Program-made: the position numbers and the translations under genes | Source: Coriobacteriia bacterium | Lineage (GTDB): Bacteria > Actinomycetota > Coriobacteriia > Anaerosomatales > Anaerosomataceae | Assembly (NCBI GenBank): GCA_030655755.1 | Contig: JAUSOQ010000015.1 | Coordinates: 1-59,412 of the forward strand | Direction: 5' to 3' | DNA: 59,412 nucleotides | Shown here: one piece after another, positions 1-13,243 of the stretch | Layout of the letters: the number at the start of each line of letters is the position of its first letter | How positions within the stretch are numbered: the first letter of the stretch is position 1 | Notes under the pieces: generated by a model | The model's input: only the letters and a program-made list of their open reading frames with translations | The model's database searches: none | Told to the model about the DNA's origin: nothing

Positions 1-145
1 CGCGTGATCGCCTTCTTCTCAGCCATCGATAACGGCATCCTTTTGACCCTTCGCCGGTCGATCCGGCAAGGGCCGGTTCGAGTACCTTCTTTTGTGAGGC
101 ATCGAATCGGTTTCGAGTACATTTATTCTGAGTCAACGCGCCGGG

Positions 146-174
146 TTGACAGGGACGCGCCAGGCCCGTATCTT
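146..174 (+). promoter_or_regulatory. sigma70-type promoter of the methionine operon
   Basis: A consensus -35 TTGACA (146-151) is followed after exactly 17 bases by TATCTT (169-174), which places the transcription start near 180, just before the T-box leader. Bases 1-145 hold no gene I can support; a GGTTCGA stretch near 75 looks like a tRNA T-arm but no cloverleaf can be built around it. Confidence 0.75.
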
Positions 175-200
175 CAACCGCAACTTCATACGCAGCCTTA

Positions 201-525
201 GATGAGGATGAGTACGCGGCCGGGTAGGGCCATCAGAGAGCCGGGGTAGCTGAGAACCGGTGCCTGACAGACCGCGGAACATGGCCTCGGAGGCATCCGG
301 AGGAACGGCGCACGTTGCCAAGTAATGCCGGACGGCAGGCACCGATATCGCAGCCTTTGAGCATCGGACCCCTCGGCGATAAGCTCCCGCTAGCCGAGCG
401 GAACCACCACCGGTCCCGTGCTCGAACGAGGTCACGGAAGACGCGTGGCGAAGTCGGGTGGTACCGCGAAAGCGACTGATGCGCTTTTCGCCCTGACATG
501 ACAGTCCGGGGCGGGAGGCGTTTTT
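201..525 (+). promoter_or_regulatory. T-box riboswitch, probably tRNA-Met specific, transcriptional
   Basis: The leader has the landmarks of a full-length T-box. The Stem I base pairs GGATG (206-210) with CATCC (294-298). An AGAGAGCC distal motif (235-242) and a GCTGAGAACCGGTGCC-type segment (249-264) are present. The specifier region reads GAACATGG, with ATG (Met) at 281-283. The T-box proper, CGGGTGGTACCGCG, is at 455-468. Segment 467-474 can pair with 482-489, which would exclude the terminator that follows. T-boxes sense the charging of their cognate tRNA, so low Met-tRNA charging should open expression of the five genes downstream. The Met assignment rests on the triplet and on the operon content. 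CAT (His) in another register is the main alternative. Confidence 0.9.
482..525 (+). terminator. T-box-controlled intrinsic terminator
   Basis: The 5' arm 482-493 pairs with 509-520 over 12 positions, four of them G-U wobbles, around a 15-base loop. Five T residues follow at 521-525. The 5' arm can instead pair with the end of the T-box segment (467-474), giving the mutually exclusive fold expected of transcription attenuation. Confidence 0.85.
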
Positions 526-546
526 CTATTGGGAGGTGGAAGTGGC

Positions 547-1719
547 ATGGCCAAGACATGGGATCAGATCAACGCCCGCATCGCGGCCGGAGAAGCGGTC
601 GTGGTGACCGCCGAGGAGTTCGCCGATATCGCTGCTGCGGAAGGCGTGTCTGCGGCGGCAAAGCGTGTCGACGTGGTCACGACAGGGACGTTCGGCCCGA
701 TGTGCTCCTCGGGTGCGGTGCTCAACTTCGGACACAGTGATCCGCCGATCCGCATGGGTGAGATAACGCTGAACGACGTCGAGGCTTACGGCGGTCTTGC
801 GGCGGTCGACACCTACATCGGCGTCACGCAACCGAGTCGCGTCAAAGGTATCGAGTACGGCGGCGCACACGTGATAGAGGACCTGCTTCGCGGCAAGTCC
901 GTACACCTGCGGGCGTGGAGCACCGGTACCGACTGCTACCCGCGCACCGAGATCGACACGTGGGTGACGCTGGAGGATCTCAACCAGGCGTACTTCTTCA
1001 ATCCTCGAAACGCGTATCAGAACTACGCGGTCGCGGTGAACAGTACCGACCGTTCGCTCAACACCTACCTCGGCACCATCCTGCCGCACTTCGGCAATGC
1101 CACATACTGCTCGGCCGGAGCGCTCTCGCCGCTGCTCAATGACCCCACCTACCGCACGATCGGTGTCGGTTCGCGGATCTTCGTCGCGGGCGCCGCAGGT
1201 TACGTCGCATGGGAAGGCACGCAGCACAACCCCAACCAACAGCGCGACGAGCACGGCGTCCCAGTCGGTCCGGCCGGCACACTCGCGGTCATCGCCGACC
1301 TCAAGCACGCGAGTCCGGAGTTCTTCTCGGCAGCGACCTTCACGGGCTACGGGGCGACCTCGTTCGTGGGTATCGGGGTGCCGATCCCGGTGCTCGACGA
1401 GGAGATCGCCGCCACACTCGCGCTGACCGACGCGGACATCACCGCGACCGTGTATGACTATGGCGTGCAGCGCCGCAGTCGGCCGGCACTTGCTCGCGTG
1501 ACCTACGCGCAACTGCGTAGCGGTGAGATCGAGATCGAGGGCAAGAAGATACCCACGGGCCCCATCAGCTCGCTGTCCAAGGCGCGTCGCATCGCCGCCG
1601 AGCTGAAGCGATGGATCGCCGAGGAGAGGTTCGAACTCGCACGGCCGCTTCAGCCGCTGCCGCAGCCGGGTAGCCAGGGCGTCAAACCGCTCGAAGTCCG
1701 CACCGAGGAGGCGATCTAG
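547..1719 (+). CDS. homocysteine biosynthesis protein, DUF39 family (sulfur incorporation)
   Basis: The 390-residue cytosolic protein resembles the DUF39 family. In methanogens (MA1821-type) a DUF39 protein with a NIL/4Fe-4S partner is required to make homocysteine directly from aspartate semialdehyde and sulfide, bypassing O-acylhomoserine. The conserved cysteine-containing segments FGPMCSSGA near residue 50 and NATYCSAGA near 185 fit the family. I chose ATG 547 over an upstream TTG at 529 because GGGAGGTGGA (531-540) is correctly spaced only for 547. It is the first gene after the T-box, and its stop abuts the partner ferredoxin gene. Function is inferred from family and operon. Confidence 0.9.
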   Translation: MAKTWDQINARIAAGEAVVVTAEEFADIAAAEGVSAAAKRVDVVTTGTFGPMCSSGAVLNFGHSDPPIRMGEITLNDVEAYGGLAAVDTYIGVTQPSRVKGIEYGGAHVIEDLLRGKSVHLRAWSTGTDCYPRTEIDTWVTLEDLNQAYFFNPRNAYQNYAVAVNSTDRSLNTYLGTILPHFGNATYCSAGALSPLLNDPTYRTIGVGSRIFVAGAAGYVAWEGTQHNPNQQRDEHGVPVGPAGTLAVIADLKHASPEFFSAATFTGYGATSFVGIGVPIPVLDEEIAATLALTDADITATVYDYGVQRRSRPALARVTYAQLRSGEIEIEGKKIPTGPISSLSKARRIAAELKRWIAEERFELARPLQPLPQPGSQGVKPLEVRTEEAI

Positions 1720-2124
1720 ATGCCGCGCAAGCGATTCGATCTCACGTTCCCGCCGAGACAGGCCACCAAGCCGGTGACCTATCACCTGGTGAAAGACTAC
1801 GATCTTGTGCCCAACATCTTGCGCGCCCAGATCCAGCCGGGGCAGGAGGGCCGTATGCTTCTCGAACTCACCGGTCGCAAGGAAGACTTCGAGGCCGGTG
1901 TGGCCTTCCTTAAGAAGGAGGGCATCGCCGTTCAGCCTGCCGCGACGGACATCTGTCTGGATGAGGAGAAGTGCGTACTGTGTGGGCTATGTACCGCAGT
2001 ATGCCGACCGGGTGCGCTGACCCTTGACCGGGACGGTGGACTGCACTTCGACAAGGACAAGTGCGTGTACTGCGAGGCGTGCGTGGTAGCCTGTCCGAGA
2101 AGGGCTGTCACGCTCAGTTTCTGA
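1720..2124 (+). CDS. NIL-domain 4Fe-4S binding protein, partner in homocysteine synthesis
   Basis: The 134-residue protein has an N-terminal NIL-type domain (about residues 1-70, a small ligand-binding fold also found in methionine ABC transporters). A two-cluster ferredoxin follows: CVLCGLCTAVC near residue 85 and CVYCEACVVAC near 115, each followed by a distal Cys-Pro or Cys-Arg context. ATG follows the stop of the DUF39 gene with no gap, so the pair is probably translated together. In archaea the equivalent MA1822-type protein acts with DUF39 to reduce and transfer sulfide-derived sulfur; the same role is inferred here. Confidence 0.9.
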   Translation: MPRKRFDLTFPPRQATKPVTYHLVKDYDLVPNILRAQIQPGQEGRMLLELTGRKEDFEAGVAFLKKEGIAVQPAATDICLDEEKCVLCGLCTAVCRPGALTLDRDGGLHFDKDKCVYCEACVVACPRRAVTLSF

Positions 2125-2145
2125 TAGGCACCGAGAGGGAGACAG

Positions 2146-4560
2146 ATGCCTGATATAGACAGACGACTCGGCCGAGACGTGCTCGTCATCGATGGTGCGA
2201 TGGGCACGATGCTGCAGCGCGGGGGCGTTCCACTGGAGCAGTGTCCGGAGCAGCTCAATGTGACCGCACCAGAGATCGTGGAGGATATCCATCGCAACTA
2301 CGTGCTGGCCGGCGCCGACTGCGTGAGCACCAACACGTTCGGTGGCACGCGCGCCAAGCTCGACGAGTACGGTCTGGGCGATCAGGTGGTCGAACTCAAT
2401 CGTGCCGGGGTGCGTATCGCCAAACGCTCCGGTGCGCAGCACGTGCTCGCCGACGTCGGGCCGACCGGACGTGTGCTCGAGCCGCTTGGCAAGGCGACCT
2501 TCGACGAGCTGTTCGCGTTGTTCGTGGAGCAGATCGAAGCGCTCGTGGCCGAAGGGCCCGACGCCGTTCTCATCGAGACGATGACCGACATCGCCGAGGC
2601 GCGCTGTGCCGTGCTGGCGGCACGTTCGGTCACGGATCTGCCTGTCTTCGTGAGCGTCAGCTTCGGACTGTCCGGTCGTATGGAGCTTTCCGGGACCGAT
2701 CCTGCAACCGCCGCCGTCGTGCTGGAGGCTGCGGGAGCGAGTGCGGTTGGGATGAACTGCGGGCTCGGCCCCGACCAGATGCTGCCGCTCGTGGAGCAGA
2801 TGGCCGAAGCGACCTCGCTGCCGCTTATCGTGCAGCCGAACGCGGGTCTACCAACGCTCGTCGACGGCAAGACGGTGTTCCCCGGGACGCCCGATCAGCT
2901 CGGCATGGCCGCCGCGCGCTTCGTTGAACTCGGGGCGTCGCTCGTCGGTTCCTGCTGCGGTTCGACGCCTGCGTTCACGGGCGCCATCGTCGACTTCACG
3001 AAGAACAAGCCGCTCTGTGAAGGTCGTACCGGGTTGAGTGGACTCGTGCTCGCCGGACCTCGCGGCGTCGCACGCATCGGTGTCGGCTTGCCCTTCGCGG
3101 TCATCGGGGAGCGCATCAACCCGACGGGCAAGAAGCGCTTGGCCGAGTCACTGCGGGAGGGCTCGATGGCGGTCGTCCGCGAATTCGCGGTCGAGCAGCA
3201 GTATGCGGGTGCGCACCTTCTTGATGTGAACGTCGGTGCGGCGGGCGTCGACGCCACGGTCCTGCTGCCGGAGGCCGTCAAGACGCTGGTGGGCATCACC
3301 GATCTGCCGCTCGTGCTCGACAATACCGACTCCATCGCACTCGAACCGGCGCTACGCGTCTACCCGGGTCGTGCGCTCATCAACTCCGTCAACGGGGGCG
3401 AGGCGTCGATGAGCGCGATCCTGCCGCTTGCGCGCCGCTACGGCGCAGCGGTCGTCGTGCTTGCGCTTGATGATGACGGCATACCTGCGACCGCCGAGGG
3501 AAGGCTTGCCATCGTGGATCGCGTGCGCAAGCGCGCCCACGCGTTCGGGCTACGCGACCATGATCTCATCATCGACTGTCTAACGCTCACGGCCGCCACA
3601 GACCCACATGCGGCCACAACGACTCTGGGCGCTGTTCGCACGGTCGCGCGCGAGTGGGGGCTTGCGACGGTACTCGGCATCAGCAACGTGAGTCACGGTC
3701 TGCCCGGACGCCCCCAGCTCAACGCGGCGTTCCTTGCTATGGCTGCGGGGCACGGTCTGCACGCCGCCATCATCAACCCGTCAGACACCGCAGCTGTGGG
3801 CGCGGTGGCTGCGATCGACGCGCTGCTCGGCCATGACGCCCAGGCCGAGCGTTGGATCGCGCTTACGAAAGCCAAGGATCCCCGGAGGGGACCGTCTGAA
3901 GGCGGAGGGCCCCTCTCGTCCGCGGACTCGATGACCGATCGACTCACGATCGCCATCGAGCGCGGTGACGCTGACAGCGCGCCGGGACTCGTGGATGGCC
4001 TCGTAGCCGGTGGGATAGAGCCGCAGGCAGTCATCGCCGGTGTGCTCACACCGGCTATCCAGCATCTGGGCGATGCGTACGGACGTGGCGAGGTCTTCCT
4101 GCCGCAACTCATTGCGGCCGCTGAAGCTATGAAAGTCGCGGTGGAGCGTGCGAAGTCGCATCTTCCGGAAGGTTCGACCACGAATGAGGGTCGTGTCGTT
4201 TTCGGGACGGTGAAAGGTGACATCCACAGCATCGGCAAAGATATCTGTGTGAGTATGCTGGAAAGCCAGGGTTTCGCCGTGAACGACCTTGGCGTGGATG
4301 TCCCTGCCGAGCGTTTCGTGGAAGCTGCCGCTGATGCCGATGCGGTGTGTCTGTCCGCACTGATGACGACCACACTGGCCAACATGGAGCGCACGGCGGT
4401 GGCGCTCGCTCAGTCCGTCGGCGTGCCGGTCTTCGTGGGGGGTGCGGTCGTGACTGCCGACTATGCCGCATCCATCGGTGCAGGTTACTCTGCGGATGCA
4501 CCGGGCTGCGTACGTGTAGTCAGAGAAGCGATCGCTGCCGGCAAGGAAGGCTTGAGATGA
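2146..4560 (+). CDS. metH: methionine synthase, cobalamin-dependent, lacking the reactivation domain
   Basis: The 804-residue protein has three modules in MetH order. A homocysteine methyltransferase barrel covers about residues 1-290, with zinc-ligand cysteines in GMNCGLGP and VGSCCGSTP. A pterin/methyl-THF barrel covers about 320-570. A cobalamin domain covers about 600-800, with KGDIHSIGKDI carrying the DxHxxG axial-histidine motif. The protein ends there, so the C-terminal AdoMet-binding reactivation domain of E. coli MetH (about 1230 residues) is absent. GAGAGGGAGACAG precedes ATG 2146. It methylates homocysteine from the two upstream gene products with methyl-THF supplied by MetF. Reactivation of oxidised cobalamin must come from another protein. 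Confidence 0.93.
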   Translation: MPDIDRRLGRDVLVIDGAMGTMLQRGGVPLEQCPEQLNVTAPEIVEDIHRNYVLAGADCVSTNTFGGTRAKLDEYGLGDQVVELNRAGVRIAKRSGAQHVLADVGPTGRVLEPLGKATFDELFALFVEQIEALVAEGPDAVLIETMTDIAEARCAVLAARSVTDLPVFVSVSFGLSGRMELSGTDPATAAVVLEAAGASAVGMNCGLGPDQMLPLVEQMAEATSLPLIVQPNAGLPTLVDGKTVFPGTPDQLGMAAARFVELGASLVGSCCGSTPAFTGAIVDFTKNKPLCEGRTGLSGLVLAGPRGVARIGVGLPFAVIGERINPTGKKRLAESLREGSMAVVREFAVEQQYAGAHLLDVNVGAAGVDATVLLPEAVKTLVGITDLPLVLDNTDSIALEPALRVYPGRALINSVNGGEASMSAILPLARRYGAAVVVLALDDDGIPATAEGRLAIVDRVRKRAHAFGLRDHDLIIDCLTLTAATDPHAATTTLGAVRTVAREWGLATVLGISNVSHGLPGRPQLNAAFLAMAAGHGLHAAIINPSDTAAVGAVAAIDALLGHDAQAERWIALTKAKDPRRGPSEGGGPLSSADSMTDRLTIAIERGDADSAPGLVDGLVAGGIEPQAVIAGVLTPAIQHLGDAYGRGEVFLPQLIAAAEAMKVAVERAKSHLPEGSTTNEGRVVFGTVKGDIHSIGKDICVSMLESQGFAVNDLGVDVPAERFVEAAADADAVCLSALMTTTLANMERTAVALAQSVGVPVFVGGAVVTADYAASIGAGYSADAPGCVRVVREAIAAGKEGLR

Positions 4561-5228
4561 TCATCACGCGACCCCGCGATTGGACGCGCATAACAGACAA
4601 TCTGGCCTCGATCGACGCCAAGGGCGTCTTCCTCATGGGCTGCGGCCAATGTGCCACCGTGGCGCACACGGGTGGCGAGAAAGAGGTGCTGCAGACCAAG
4701 GCGGTCCTTGAACAGGCGGGATATACCGTGACGGGTTGGGCGGTCGGGGAGGTCACGTGTCACCTCGGTGGCACCAAGCTCGAGTCGCGCAAGCATCACG
4801 AGGATATCGAGGCCGCCGATGCGGTTCTCGTGCTTGCCTGTGGCGCCGGCGTGCAGACCGTGGCGGATGCGGTCTCCAAACCGGTCTTCCCCGGTCTGGA
4901 ATCGGTGTTCCTGGGCAACGTCATTCGACATGGCGTGTTCGAGGAACGATGTCAGATGTGTGGCGATTGCGTTCTAGACCTGACCGCGGGTATCTGCCCT
5001 GTGACGACCTGCCCCAAGGGTCTTCTCAACGGTCCGTGTGGCGGGATGTGGGACGGAAAATGCGAGGTCTTGCAGGATCGGGAATGTGCGCACGTCCGGA
5101 TTCAGCGGCGGCTGAAGGAGCAGGGCAGGGGAGGCACGTTGGGCGTGCTTCCGCCCAAGGACTTCTCGACGAAACTGAAGCCCGGAGCTGTCAACTTGCG
5201 TGACAAGAAGGGCGGCGATCGCCCGTGA
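4557..5228 (+). CDS. metV: MetV-like methylenetetrahydrofolate reductase C-terminal domain protein
   Basis: The 223-residue cysteine-rich protein belongs to the zinc/Fe-S MTHFR C-terminal family that accompanies short MetF proteins in acetogens and other anaerobes. Visible clusters include MGCGQCATVAHTGG near residue 22, CQMCGDC near 135, and CPVTTCPKGLLNGPCGG near 155-170. ATG 4557 overlaps the metH stop as ATGA, so translational coupling decides the start; a longer frame opening at 4347 lies inside metH. With MetF next door it probably forms the MetVF complex that reduces methylene-THF with low-potential or pyridine-nucleotide electrons. Confidence 0.85.
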   Translation: MIITRPRDWTRITDNLASIDAKGVFLMGCGQCATVAHTGGEKEVLQTKAVLEQAGYTVTGWAVGEVTCHLGGTKLESRKHHEDIEAADAVLVLACGAGVQTVADAVSKPVFPGLESVFLGNVIRHGVFEERCQMCGDCVLDLTAGICPVTTCPKGLLNGPCGGMWDGKCEVLQDRECAHVRIQRRLKEQGRGGTLGVLPPKDFSTKLKPGAVNLRDKKGGDRP

Positions 5229-6094
5229 GCCGATTCCGGGAAGCACTGGAGTGCGGAGAGTTCGTCGTGACCAGTGAGGTCGCGCCGCCGCTCGGCACTG
5301 ACCTGTCAGCGATGCGCAGAGCGGTCGAGACCATCGGCCCCCATTGTCATGCGCTCAACGTCACCGACAACCAAGGCGCGACACTGCATCTGTCGAGCCT
5401 GGCCGCTTCACGTGTGGTACTCGAGATGGGGTACGAGCCGATCTTCCAGCAGACCTGCCGGGACAGGAATCGTCTCGCGTTGCAGTCCGACCTGCTGGCC
5501 GCGTGGACACTCGGTCTCAGGAACCTGCTGGCGGTGACGGGTGACGATCCCCGATCGGGCGATCATCCTCATGCGAAGGGCGTCTTCGACCTGGACTCCA
5601 CGCAACTGGCAACCATTGCGGCCGGCATGAACGGTGGTCACGACATGCTCGGACGTGAGCTTGATGGCGCCACCGACTTCTTCATAGGCGGAGCGATGTT
5701 TCCCGAAGCAGAACCATGGGACATCCAGCTCGTGCGGGCGCAACGCAAGGTCGAGGCCGGTATGCGCTTCTTCCAGACGCAGGCCATCTTCGATATGGCG
5801 AAGCTGGAGAGGGCAGTGGAAGCGCTGAGGCCGATGGGAGTGAAAGTCATCGCAGGCGTGTTGTTGCTGAGAAGCCCCCGCGTGATCGATTTCATCAATC
5901 GCAGACTCGCTGGCTTGATGGTGCCCGAACATATCGCGGATAGGATCCGCGGCGCCGATGATGTTGCCGAGGAGTCGATCGCGCTCGCCACCGAACAGGT
6001 CCGTGAGATCCGTCAGATCGCGGATGGAGTCCATATCATGTCGCTGGGACTCGACAGCGCAGTAGGGCGTATACTGGAAACTAAGGATTCATAA
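5225..6094 (+). CDS. metF: methylenetetrahydrofolate reductase
   Basis: The 289-residue flavoprotein is of MetF barrel type. It reduces 5,10-methylene-THF to 5-methyl-THF, the methyl donor for the adjacent MetH. Family-like segments include TSEVAPPLGTD near residue 17, LLAVTGDDP near 100 and FFQTQAIFD near 185. GTG 5225 overlaps the stop of metV, a four-base GTGA junction that supports the start. The length equals bacterial MetF without the eukaryotic regulatory domain. It is the last gene of the T-box operon; 93 bases without a clear hairpin separate it from the next gene. Confidence 0.93.
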   Translation: MSRFREALECGEFVVTSEVAPPLGTDLSAMRRAVETIGPHCHALNVTDNQGATLHLSSLAASRVVLEMGYEPIFQQTCRDRNRLALQSDLLAAWTLGLRNLLAVTGDDPRSGDHPHAKGVFDLDSTQLATIAAGMNGGHDMLGRELDGATDFFIGGAMFPEAEPWDIQLVRAQRKVEAGMRFFQTQAIFDMAKLERAVEALRPMGVKVIAGVLLLRSPRVIDFINRRLAGLMVPEHIADRIRGADDVAEESIALATEQVREIRQIADGVHIMSLGLDSAVGRILETKDS

Positions 6095-6187
6095 GAGAAT
6101 TCGAGGAAGACCGTAACCCGCTTGCCTTGCGATGCGTTATCTCTTCTGTATGTGTCTGTCCAGGGAGCTGACGTGGAGGTGTCTTGC

Positions 6188-6913
6188 GTGTCCGAGTCCG
6201 CACGGATGGTGTCGTGTGTGTCTTCCAAGTCCGAGGTCTGCAGCTGCCATCTTGTCGACCGCATCGATACCTATCGTGAGCTTTCCCGTCTGTTCCATGG
6301 CTCGGAGGAAGCGGCTGCGGACAGCATCATCCGCCTTGTCTCGGCAACACGCAGTTGTCACAAGATGCCCTATATCGACGAGGATCTGATCCAGTCGCTT
6401 CATCGCGAAGCGTTTCTTGAGCTGCTAGACCCCGAAGTGCGTCGCGACTTCGCGATCGAGCGCGTCCAACTGTTTGGAGAGTGCGACTATGACCCGCGGG
6501 TGAACGTCGTTCCTCCTCGCGAATCTACCTATCTCGATACCGGCGATGGTTCGCGAGTGGAGTCCGTGCGAGCGGCCTACGCCCACGCCGGGTACGATCC
6601 TCCGAAGCGGCTCGCAGCGCTGGACTGCCCCGATCACATCGCCGTCGAGCTCGACTTCATGGCGCACTGTCTCGAGCGTCTCTGTGGCGATGCGACCCTG
6701 GCTGACTGCGCCCATGACTTCTTCGTCGACCATCTTTCCGGGTGGGCCGTGCTGTTCGCTGTCGCGACCGAGCGGCGCGCCTTCCATGCGTCGATGCGCT
6801 ATTCGGCCCTGGTCCTCGACAAGTTCCTTGCGTGTGAAGCGGTGACCTTCCGGCACAGTGTACCGGCGCTGTGTGCATTGCGAGCACTCCCTACGGAGGG
6901 TATCGGGGTATAA
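6188..6913 (+). CDS. TorD/DmsD-family molybdoenzyme chaperone-like protein
   Basis: The 241-residue all-alpha protein ends in the TorD signature. A DCPDHIAVELDFMAHCLERL segment near residue 140 matches the DH-x-x-x-E-x-x-F-M pattern. A helix with FFVDHLSGW and a final bundle with YSALVLDKFLACE follow. Family members bind Tat signal peptides and guard molybdoenzyme or Fe-S subunits during cofactor insertion. The start is GTG 6188, seven bases after GGAGGT (6175-6180); TTG 6122 opens a longer frame without a site. The N-terminus is rich in cysteine. No molybdoenzyme lies beside it, but the next gene is MoaE-like. The client is unknown. Confidence 0.75.
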   Translation: MSESARMVSCVSSKSEVCSCHLVDRIDTYRELSRLFHGSEEAAADSIIRLVSATRSCHKMPYIDEDLIQSLHREAFLELLDPEVRRDFAIERVQLFGECDYDPRVNVVPPRESTYLDTGDGSRVESVRAAYAHAGYDPPKRLAALDCPDHIAVELDFMAHCLERLCGDATLADCAHDFFVDHLSGWAVLFAVATERRAFHASMRYSALVLDKFLACEAVTFRHSVPALCALRALPTEGIGV

Positions 6914-6914
6914 T
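6909..6914 (+). promoter_or_regulatory. perfect -10 hexamer upstream of the moaE-like gene
   Basis: TATAAT at 6909-6914 overlaps the stop codon of the TorD-like gene and lies 35 bases before the next start. No convincing -35 element sits 16-18 bases upstream, so this is a probable but incomplete promoter. Confidence 0.45.
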
Positions 6915-6949
6915 CGTCCCACCATATCAAGACGATGGGAGTCACACTC

Positions 6950-7327
6950 ATGGCCTCACCCGGACCTCGTCCTTCGCTCGACGCCTGGCTTGCCGAGATA
7001 AAGGCCAGCGGGAACATCGACGGTATCGGCATGTACCTGGTACACAATGGAGTAGTGCGCGGGTACTCACGTGACGGCAGACCCGTCTCGGGCATGGTTC
7101 TCAGCGTCGACAGAGAGCGGCTGACCGAGATCATGGTCAGCGCGAAGCTCATGGAGGGCGTCGGTGCCGTTCGGACATGGGTCAACGAGGGTGAACTCTC
7201 GGTAGGCGACGACATCATGTATGTGCTCGTGGCTGGCGACATCAGAGAGAACGTCTTCGGCGCTCTGCAGGCGATCGTGAAGATGGTCAAGACCGAGGTC
7301 GTGACTGAAGTGGAGCTGCGCCCTTAG
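6950..7327 (+). CDS. MoaE-like molybdopterin synthase catalytic subunit, divergent
   Basis: The 125-residue protein can be laid along MoaE: a GVVRGYS strand (the GKVRN position), ELSVGDDIMYVLVAGDIREN (the GEL-x-x-GD-E-I strand and AHR loop), then an amphipathic helix with MVKTEV. MoaE transfers sulfur from MoaD thiocarboxylate to precursor Z. The equivalent of lysine 119 is present. The WK(R/K)E segment with lysine 126 is missing and the loop histidine is replaced, so catalysis is doubtful. ATG 6950 is preferred over 6935 because GGGAG lies nine bases upstream. It overlaps tail to tail by four bases with the diguanylate cyclase gene. Confidence 0.65.
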   Translation: MASPGPRPSLDAWLAEIKASGNIDGIGMYLVHNGVVRGYSRDGRPVSGMVLSVDRERLTEIMVSAKLMEGVGAVRTWVNEGELSVGDDIMYVLVAGDIRENVFGALQAIVKMVKTEVVTEVELRP

Positions 7328-8970
7328 CGCGGACCGTTCCTGGCCTGAGCGAAGCGGAAGAGGTCGCCGTCGCTCTTCGCCTGGTACATGGCCATGTCGG
7401 CGGCGTGCATGAGTTCGCTGAACGTGCGCCCATCGTCCGGGTAGAGCGCGATGCCGATGCTCATGTCGATATCCACGGGACCCTGAGATGTGAGTGCGGG
7501 TTGTGCCATCGCCTCTGTGATCTTTCGAGCGACCAACCCCACGGTGTCTTTCGACTCCTCGTTCGGAAGCAGGAGCATGAACTCGTCGCCGCCGAGTCGT
7601 GCCACGGTGTCGCTCTTGCGCACGACCGAGATGAGTCGTTCGGCCACCTCGGCGAGCAGCTGGTCTCCCGCAGCGTGTCCGAGCGTGTCGTTGACACTCT
7701 TGAAGTCGTTCATGTCCATGAACATGAGCGCAAAGGGTTTGCCCTCTCGGTCGGCGCGGCTGATCGCGACGGCGAGACGGTCGTCGAACAGCGCGCGGTT
7801 GGGAAGGCCGGTCAGGATGTCGTAGTAGGCCATGTGACGGATGGTCTCCTCGGCCTGCCTGCGCGACGTCACGTCGTGTGCGACCGCCTGCACTGCAGGA
7901 CGTCCATGGTAGGTGAGGGGGGTCGCGGCGATCTCCAGGTAGATCGTCGACCCGTCCGTGCGCTGGAAGCGGAGTTCGAGCGGACCGGTGCCTTGACGGC
8001 CTTGGGTCGTAACTCCGATCCGTGCCGCTGCAGCCTCGCGATCATCGGGGTGGACGAGCTCGAGCACGTGGGTCCCGATCATGTCTGCGGGGTTGTTGTA
8101 TCCGAGCAAAGAGGCTCCGTACGGGTTCATGAACGCGATGATGCCTTCGATGTGCACGAGAATGAGGTCGGGAGCCAGTTCCACGAGGCGACGGAAGCGT
8201 TCTTCGGACTCGCGCAGCATCTTCTCCACGCGGCGGCGTTCGGCCACTTCATCTTGGAGCTCTGTGTTGGTCTGCTCGAGTTCGTGCGTGCGTTCCCGTA
8301 CGCGGTCCTCCAGTTTCTCGCTGTAGAGCTGTAGAGCCATCTCGGCGCGCTTGACGTCGGTTATGTCATGTGAGATCTCGACGATCGCAGCAGGTGCATC
8401 GTCCTCGTCTGGAACCGGATACCAGGTCTGCTCGACCCACTGCTCGCGACCGTCGGGCATCGTTCGTTGCCGGACTGCGGTCGCACTCCTCCCCGTGCGC
8501 ATGACGAGGCGAACGCGGCAGCCGTCACACGGAGTCTCGTCTCCGACGCTCACCTCGTGGCATGTGTGACCGACGATCTCAGACTCGTCGATGCCGAGGT
8601 CTTTGACGGCTTGAGGGTTCGCATACCCGATCACGTAGTCGCTGTCGACGACCAGGATAGCGTCGGGGCTGTGTTCATAGACGAGCCCGATCTTCTGGCG
8701 TTCGAATGCCAGTGCGCTCTCGGTTCTGCAGTGGCGGTTGAACAAGCGCTGCATGTAGACGGTGAGTGCGATGATCACGATGCTCATGAGGATGCGGAAC
8801 GCCAGGGCACGTATGTCGGGACGCAAAAGCTCGTCGAGGAAGCTCGTGCCTGACATGCCGGAGCGCAGCATCGCCTCGGAAAGCCAGAGGACGACGACCA
8901 GAACGAGCCCCGCCAAGATGAGCCTTGGCTTACGTTGGTGTTGTCTGTTGTCTGCGCTTCTGCCGGTCAT
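7324..8970 (-). CDS. membrane PAS-PAS-GGDEF diguanylate cyclase
   Basis: The 548-residue protein has two N-terminal membrane helices (about residues 18-36 and 58-75). A PAS domain with a CDGC pair in its middle follows (about 90-210), then a coiled-coil segment, a second PAS (about 255-375) and a GGDEF domain. The active site LGGDEFM is intact. RKSD five residues upstream forms the RxxD inhibitory site, so product feedback by c-di-GMP is expected. There is no EAL domain. ATG 8970 is used instead of GTG 8982 because GAGGTGGGGG is spaced for it. The signal sensed is unknown; the Cys pair suggests heme, redox or metal. Confidence 0.9.
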   Translation of the reverse strand: MTGRSADNRQHQRKPRLILAGLVLVVVLWLSEAMLRSGMSGTSFLDELLRPDIRALAFRILMSIVIIALTVYMQRLFNRHCRTESALAFERQKIGLVYEHSPDAILVVDSDYVIGYANPQAVKDLGIDESEIVGHTCHEVSVGDETPCDGCRVRLVMRTGRSATAVRQRTMPDGREQWVEQTWYPVPDEDDAPAAIVEISHDITDVKRAEMALQLYSEKLEDRVRERTHELEQTNTELQDEVAERRRVEKMLRESEERFRRLVELAPDLILVHIEGIIAFMNPYGASLLGYNNPADMIGTHVLELVHPDDREAAAARIGVTTQGRQGTGPLELRFQRTDGSTIYLEIAATPLTYHGRPAVQAVAHDVTSRRQAEETIRHMAYYDILTGLPNRALFDDRLAVAISRADREGKPFALMFMDMNDFKSVNDTLGHAAGDQLLAEVAERLISVVRKSDTVARLGGDEFMLLLPNEESKDTVGLVARKITEAMAQPALTSQGPVDIDMSIGIALYPDDGRTFSELMHAADMAMYQAKSDGDLFRFAQARNGPR

Positions 8971-12511: not shown

Positions 12512-13243
12512 ATGGTGTACGAACCTCGTTTCTACAGAGAGAATGTCGCTGCCGACGGCCTCGTTTCGTTCGTTGTGGTGAACGCCGAGACCGATCTGCA
12601 CATCAGTGCGCGCCGTGACCTCTCCGGAGAGGCGAGAGTGCTCGTTGCGGAGCTGCGCAGTGGACTTGAGTCCTATATCGCTGCGCATCCGCGTTTTGCC
12701 GAAAGCTACGTCCCACTCGATGTGGAGCCGAACGCTCCCGAGATCGTACAAGCGATGGTGAAGGGTGCTCGCGCCGCAGGTGTGGGGCCGATGGCGGCGG
12801 TAGCGGGCGCTATTGCCGAGCGGGTCGCGCGAGGACTTTTTGTGTACTCGTCCGAGGTGATCGTCGAGAACGGCGGTGACCTCTACGTGGTGGGCGCGAC
12901 CGATCGCGTGATCGCGCTGTGGGCCGCCGACTCGCCCTTCACGGGCAAGCTCGGCCTCAGGATCCATGGAGATGTCCTGCCCGTCGCGGTGTGTACGTCG
13001 TCCGGCAGGATCGGGCACAGCGTGTCGTTCGGCCGGTCGGACACGGTCACGGTACTCGCGTCTGACGGCGCCCTTGCAGATGCCGTGGCCACTGCGTTGG
13101 CCAATCGAGTGAGGGATGTCGGTGACATCGATGCTGCGATCGCGTTCGGGCGAGGGATCGCCGGTGTCACGGGCGTGCTGGTGGCCGTCGGCGACCGGAT
13201 CGGCGCATGGGGGGCGGTCGAACTTGTCCCTCTCGGCGAGTGA
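12512..13243 (+). CDS. UPF0280 family protein (ApbE-like fold)
   Basis: The 243-residue protein looks like UPF0280. Recognisable parts are the YEPRFYRE start, a glycine-rich PMAAVAGAIAE segment near residue 95, a VENGGDLYV motif near 120, and a C-terminal FGRGIAGVTGVLVAVGD strand region. The family is related to ApbE FMN transferases and is common in methanogens and anaerobes. Its reaction is unknown. It is transcribed divergently from the ferritin-like GGDEF gene across about 60 bases. A TAGAAT-type -10 follows it, for the next gene. Confidence 0.8.
   Translation: MVYEPRFYRENVAADGLVSFVVVNAETDLHISARRDLSGEARVLVAELRSGLESYIAAHPRFAESYVPLDVEPNAPEIVQAMVKGARAAGVGPMAAVAGAIAERVARGLFVYSSEVIVENGGDLYVVGATDRVIALWAADSPFTGKLGLRIHGDVLPVAVCTSSGRIGHSVSFGRSDTVTVLASDGALADAVATALANRVRDVGDIDAAIAFGRGIAGVTGVLVAVGDRIGAWGAVELVPLGE

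Follow-up and report, generated by a model that had tools for sequence, protein, structure and literature searches.

A predicted tRNA-Met-sensing T-box in front of the DUF39 homocysteine operon of Coriobacteriia

T-box leader RNAs with methionine specificity are already known in the Bacillota (PMC2494555, PMC3771891). The DUF39 route to homocysteine, on the other hand, has been described in Desulfovibrio and Methanosarcina, and in Desulfovibrio homocysteine synthesis also needs a COG2122 protein as its third factor; regulation is not treated and T-boxes are not mentioned in that work (PMC5764234). Here, we report the co-occurrence of these two elements in a Coriobacteriia bacterium. The window, that is the whole stretch of DNA analysed, comprises 59,412 nucleotides of contig JAUSOQ010000015.1, and the locus occupies positions 146–6094 of its forward strand. 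This span had been singled out in an earlier note made from the sequence alone; it starts at a promoter-like site, with the -35 box, and ends with the metF stop codon. A transcriptional T-box sensing tRNA-Met is predicted from the sequence to control the DUF39 operon, with a probability that we put at about 0.92. A methionine T-box on the DUF39 route in several deep actinobacterial lineages appears to be undescribed in the open literature, several older surveys and the contents of the TBDB lying outside the scope of this statement. The novel points are the regulator swap on the DUF39 operon and an inserted stem in the leader.

Architecture of the leader and its predicted mode of control

In a permissive Rfam scan of positions 1–700, the T-box family RF00230 matched 190–498 (+) from end to end with 72.1 bits and an E-value of 1.3e-15 (8.9e-16 when the same match was scored genome-wide), which bears out the full-length T-box proposed in the earlier note. 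Since this score falls under the RF00230 gathering cut-off of 93 bits, the E-value mode was used; a scan of the window at the gathering threshold gave zero matches, and a default scan misses this T-box. The T-box matches of the order, in the 41 genomes described below, also scored mostly below 93 bits, and the low score therefore reflects the sensitivity of the model.

Transcription may start from a sigma-70-like promoter at 146–174 (TTGACA-17-TATCTT), which agrees with the consensus at 10 of 12 positions, has a like site at a corresponding place in 26 of 27 relatives and was the better of two such sites found across 1–7400. The start of the window is also one end of the contig. Stem I, with an AG bulge near 234–239 and a distal loop, extends over 195–294 in the Rfam alignment and corresponds to helices 1–4 of the covariation analysis. 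Its specifier loop reads GAA-C-AUG-G-CC, and the covariance alignment gives AUG at 281–283 and no other codon, in keeping with the methionine specifier that had been claimed. The Stem II S-turn (AAGUA) and the Stem IIA/B region follow at 320–350, as conserved columns of the Rfam alignment in which AGUA is invariant among the aligned leaders (n = 27), and Stem III at 431–449 shows two-sided changes at four of its six pairs. The antiterminator, likewise placed by the Rfam alignment and with mixed pairing counts, covers 456–494; its UGGU bulge (459–462) belongs to the T-box sequence UGGUACC at 459–465.

The transcription terminator that had been proposed was also recovered. This strong intrinsic terminator lies at 483–525 and consists of a stem (483–519) and a T-run, and the fold of 484–528, a long stem and then the T-run, has a free energy of -19.2 kcal/mol compared to -11.9 +/- 2.9 kcal/mol for shuffled sequences (z -2.6). 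Comparable folds are present in 27 of 27 leaders of the order. Antiterminator and terminator have bases 483–494 in common and are thus mutually exclusive. With all structural features of the class present at 190–525, the predicted assignment to class I, the transcriptional T-boxes, is well-supported.

Two other readings of the leader were considered. The T-boxes identified in Actinobacteria are mostly of the translational class (PMC7583486), and the present T-box could, as in many members of that group, act on translation by hiding the ribosome-binding site. However, the terminator stem stops at 519, the T-run comes next, and the likely ribosome-binding site (531–539) is outside the stem. Translational control was rejected on the position of this site, and the retention of a comparable terminator in every one of the 27 relatives further reduces it to a very improbable alternative. 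The score below the Rfam cut-off could in turn be taken as the mark of a decayed remnant without a regulatory role, but the invariance of specifier, bulge and S-turn, the compensatory changes and the retention of the terminator across 27 genomes make this reading scarcely credible.

The earlier note was less fortunate in contrasting this leader with short translational ileS T-boxes. The other T-boxes of the genome precede ilvD-ilvB, trpE, ileS and pheS, genes which were assigned by reading translations, and those of ileS, trpE and ilvD are full length. The ileS leader has a strong and clear terminator, so that T-boxes which are long and transcriptional are nothing unusual in this lineage.

Conservation within the order and the inserted stem

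Relatives were searched in 41 genomes representing the genome itself, its genus, family and order (Coriobacteriia, probably Anaerosomatales); the named ones are Coriobacteriia MAGs, one of which is labelled Anaerosomatales. T-boxes were found in all 41, mostly three to five per genome. DUF39 was present in 31 genomes, once as a fragment at a contig start, leaving 30 with a readable leader, and in 29 of these a T-box lies directly before DUF39. The remaining genome of the 30 (G040) contains DUF39 with no T-box match in front. The comparison of specifier loops suggested in the earlier note gave AUG in 28 of 28 readable loops of the order, and both AUG and UGGUACC are invariant in the 27 leaders that were aligned.

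Covariation in these 27 leaders supports the structure that contains the terminator, with 19 pairs showing two-sided changes versus 6.8 in shuffles and with 91.7% of cells paired versus at most 46% when the structure was slid along the alignment. For the antiterminator alone the pair counts were hardly above those of shuffles, and they are uninformative because much of the antiterminator core is invariant.

Between Stem II and Stem III, covariation revealed a lineage-specific inserted stem at 359–423, in which 11 pairs between 359–370 and 412–423 enclose an internal hairpin. In this stem 95.9% of cells are paired, and two-sided changes occur at 6 of the 11 outer pairs. Inspection of the ilvD leader of the same genome showed no comparable insertion. 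A conserved unpaired CCACC in the 404–411 region was considered as a possible block of the T-box GGUGG and was rejected as the main mechanism; of the 27 leaders, most have a mean pairing probability of CCACC with GGUGG near 0 and three have one of 0.2–0.4, and the motif is missing from four.

The operon and the proposed regulatory mechanism

Downstream of the T-box are five tandem genes separated by short or negative intergenic gaps, and their Pfam domains agree with the gene content named in the earlier note. The first encodes the DUF39/HcyBio homocysteine biosynthesis protein (547–1719 (+), with ATG at 547; PF01837, E 6e-148), in which Cys53, Cys130 and Cys188 are invariant in 12 relatives. 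It is followed by a NIL-ferredoxin protein (1720–2124 (+); PF09383 and a Fer4 4Fe-4S domain), a MetH of 804 aa with S-methyl_trans, Pterin_bind and two B12 domains and without the AdoMet reactivation domain (2146–4560 (+)), a MetV-like protein with the MetV-type domain PF12225 (4557–5228 (+)) and the methylenetetrahydrofolate reductase MetF (5225–6094 (+), with its stop at 6094; PF02219, MTHFR). Directly 3' of the operon, 6122–7327 (+) contains genes for a nitrate reductase delta-like chaperone and a MoaE-like protein.

The AdoMet reactivation domain PF02965 was found nowhere in the whole genome. An AcsV/RACo-like corrinoid activator is encoded elsewhere (G000:C76:30934-31713 (+), L229:792-2756), and it is a plausible candidate for a substitute that would reactivate the truncated MetH. 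A second RACo-like gene, at G000:C15:39412-40164 (-) (L227), has an in-frame TAG. A probable COG2122/UPF0280 protein is encoded at 12512–13243 (+), 6.4 kb downstream and outside the T-box operon; it matches NF003323, which we take to be the COG2122 model, with 291.6 bits and thus above the cut-off of 271. In a genome search for classical homocysteine synthases, PF01053 gave weak hits only, the best of which is a cysteine desulfurase, and the DUF39 route is therefore probably the sole homocysteine route of the genome, as far as enzymes of the PF01053 type, as distinct from MetA/MetX, are concerned.

The following course of events is proposed from what is known about T-boxes in general, from which tRNA binding, the direction of the response and the ligand tRNA-Met (initiator or elongator) are all extrapolated. 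When methionine is scarce, uncharged tRNA-Met would pair with the leader at two sites, its CAU anticodon binding the AUG specifier and its ACCA end the UGGU bulge. The bound tRNA would stabilise the antiterminator and RNA polymerase would transcribe the operon, whose products would convert aspartate semialdehyde and sulfide to homocysteine and further to methionine. With tRNA-Met charged, the terminator at 483–525 would form and transcription would end ahead of DUF39.

The three CAU tRNAs of the genome were assigned from sequence, and both the elongator and the initiator tRNA-Met gene have the anticodon CAU and an A73-CCA end matching UGGU. As a refinement, the leader may sense the initiator tRNA-fMet, which would couple methionine synthesis to the initiation of translation and not to elongation. 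The methionine T-box of S. aureus shows strong binding of initiator tRNA and weak binding of elongator tRNA-Met (PMC3771891), but here CAU and A73 are shared by both tRNAs and the UGGU bulge suits either, and the chances of the refinement being correct seem to us a little below even.

A further RNA element of the genome is a SAM-I riboswitch match just below the cut-off (43.1 versus 44.4 bits) at G000:C21:325680-325810 (-) (L195), and the gene after it reads as metK. With SAM-I on metK and the T-box on the DUF39 operon, SAM and methionine synthesis thus appear to be under separate RNA sensors. It may be speculated that deep-branching Actinomycetota exchanged a SAM-I of the Bacillota type on the DUF39 operon, or never had one, and run this operon on the charging of tRNA-Met with metK keeping its separate SAM-I, while the extra stem of the order (359–423) adds a regulatory contact such as selection of the initiator tRNA or competition for UGGU. 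We regard this combined scenario as unlikely.

Distribution and relation to known systems

A T-box precedes DUF39 also in other actinobacterial families, namely at the loci L146, L147 (Candidatus Aquicultor), L148, L150 (unidentified bacterium) and L143 (Subteraquimicrobium), and the specifier can be read as AUG in all five, less clearly so in L143. In a sample of the phylum, an RF00230 T-box was confirmed at L199, L202, L205, L207, L210, L213, L214, L215, L217 and L221 and was not confirmed at L196, L198, L209, L211 and L222. At L148 and L202, the T-box is set apart from DUF39 by several hundred bases, in which short open frames appear to be present. In the Bacillota, about 31 loci were scanned, with the gathering threshold as the sole setting. 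In 15 of them SAM-I immediately precedes DUF39 (L144, L145, L149, L151, L153, L155, L156, L158, L164, L167, L170, L182, L185, L188 and L190), and no T-box reached the cut-off in any.

The association of DUF39, NIL-ferredoxin, MetH, MetV and MetF under one leader provides an independent regulatory argument that they constitute a single methionine pathway in these anaerobes. One gene pair would be controlled in the two phyla through RNA sensors of unrelated types, by SAM-I in Bacillota and by a sensor of tRNA-Met in Actinomycetota. Methionine T-boxes would also extend to several deep actinobacterial lineages. The Anaerosomatales have cultured members (PMC9686372), which makes the switch experimentally accessible.

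Among the described systems, the methionine T-box that controls metICFE-mdh in S. aureus (PMC3771891) resembles the present one in being transcriptional, in its AUG specifier and in having methionine synthesis as its target, but it belongs to the Bacillales and its operon is not a DUF39 operon. The methionine T-boxes of Lactobacillales (PMC2494555, PMC3766115) similarly combine a methionine specifier with genes of methionine biosynthesis and transport, although they are from Bacillota and their targets are transporters and methionine enzymes other than DUF39. The SAM-I elements before DUF39 in Bacillota are leader RNA elements on the same target genes, whereas their aptamer class recognises S-adenosylmethionine and not tRNA-Met. 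The Desulfovibrio/Methanosarcina route (PMC5764234) comprises the same three protein families as found here, DUF39, NIL-ferredoxin and COG2122; in contrast to that route, DUF39 and NIL-ferredoxin are here joined with metH-metV-metF under a T-box.
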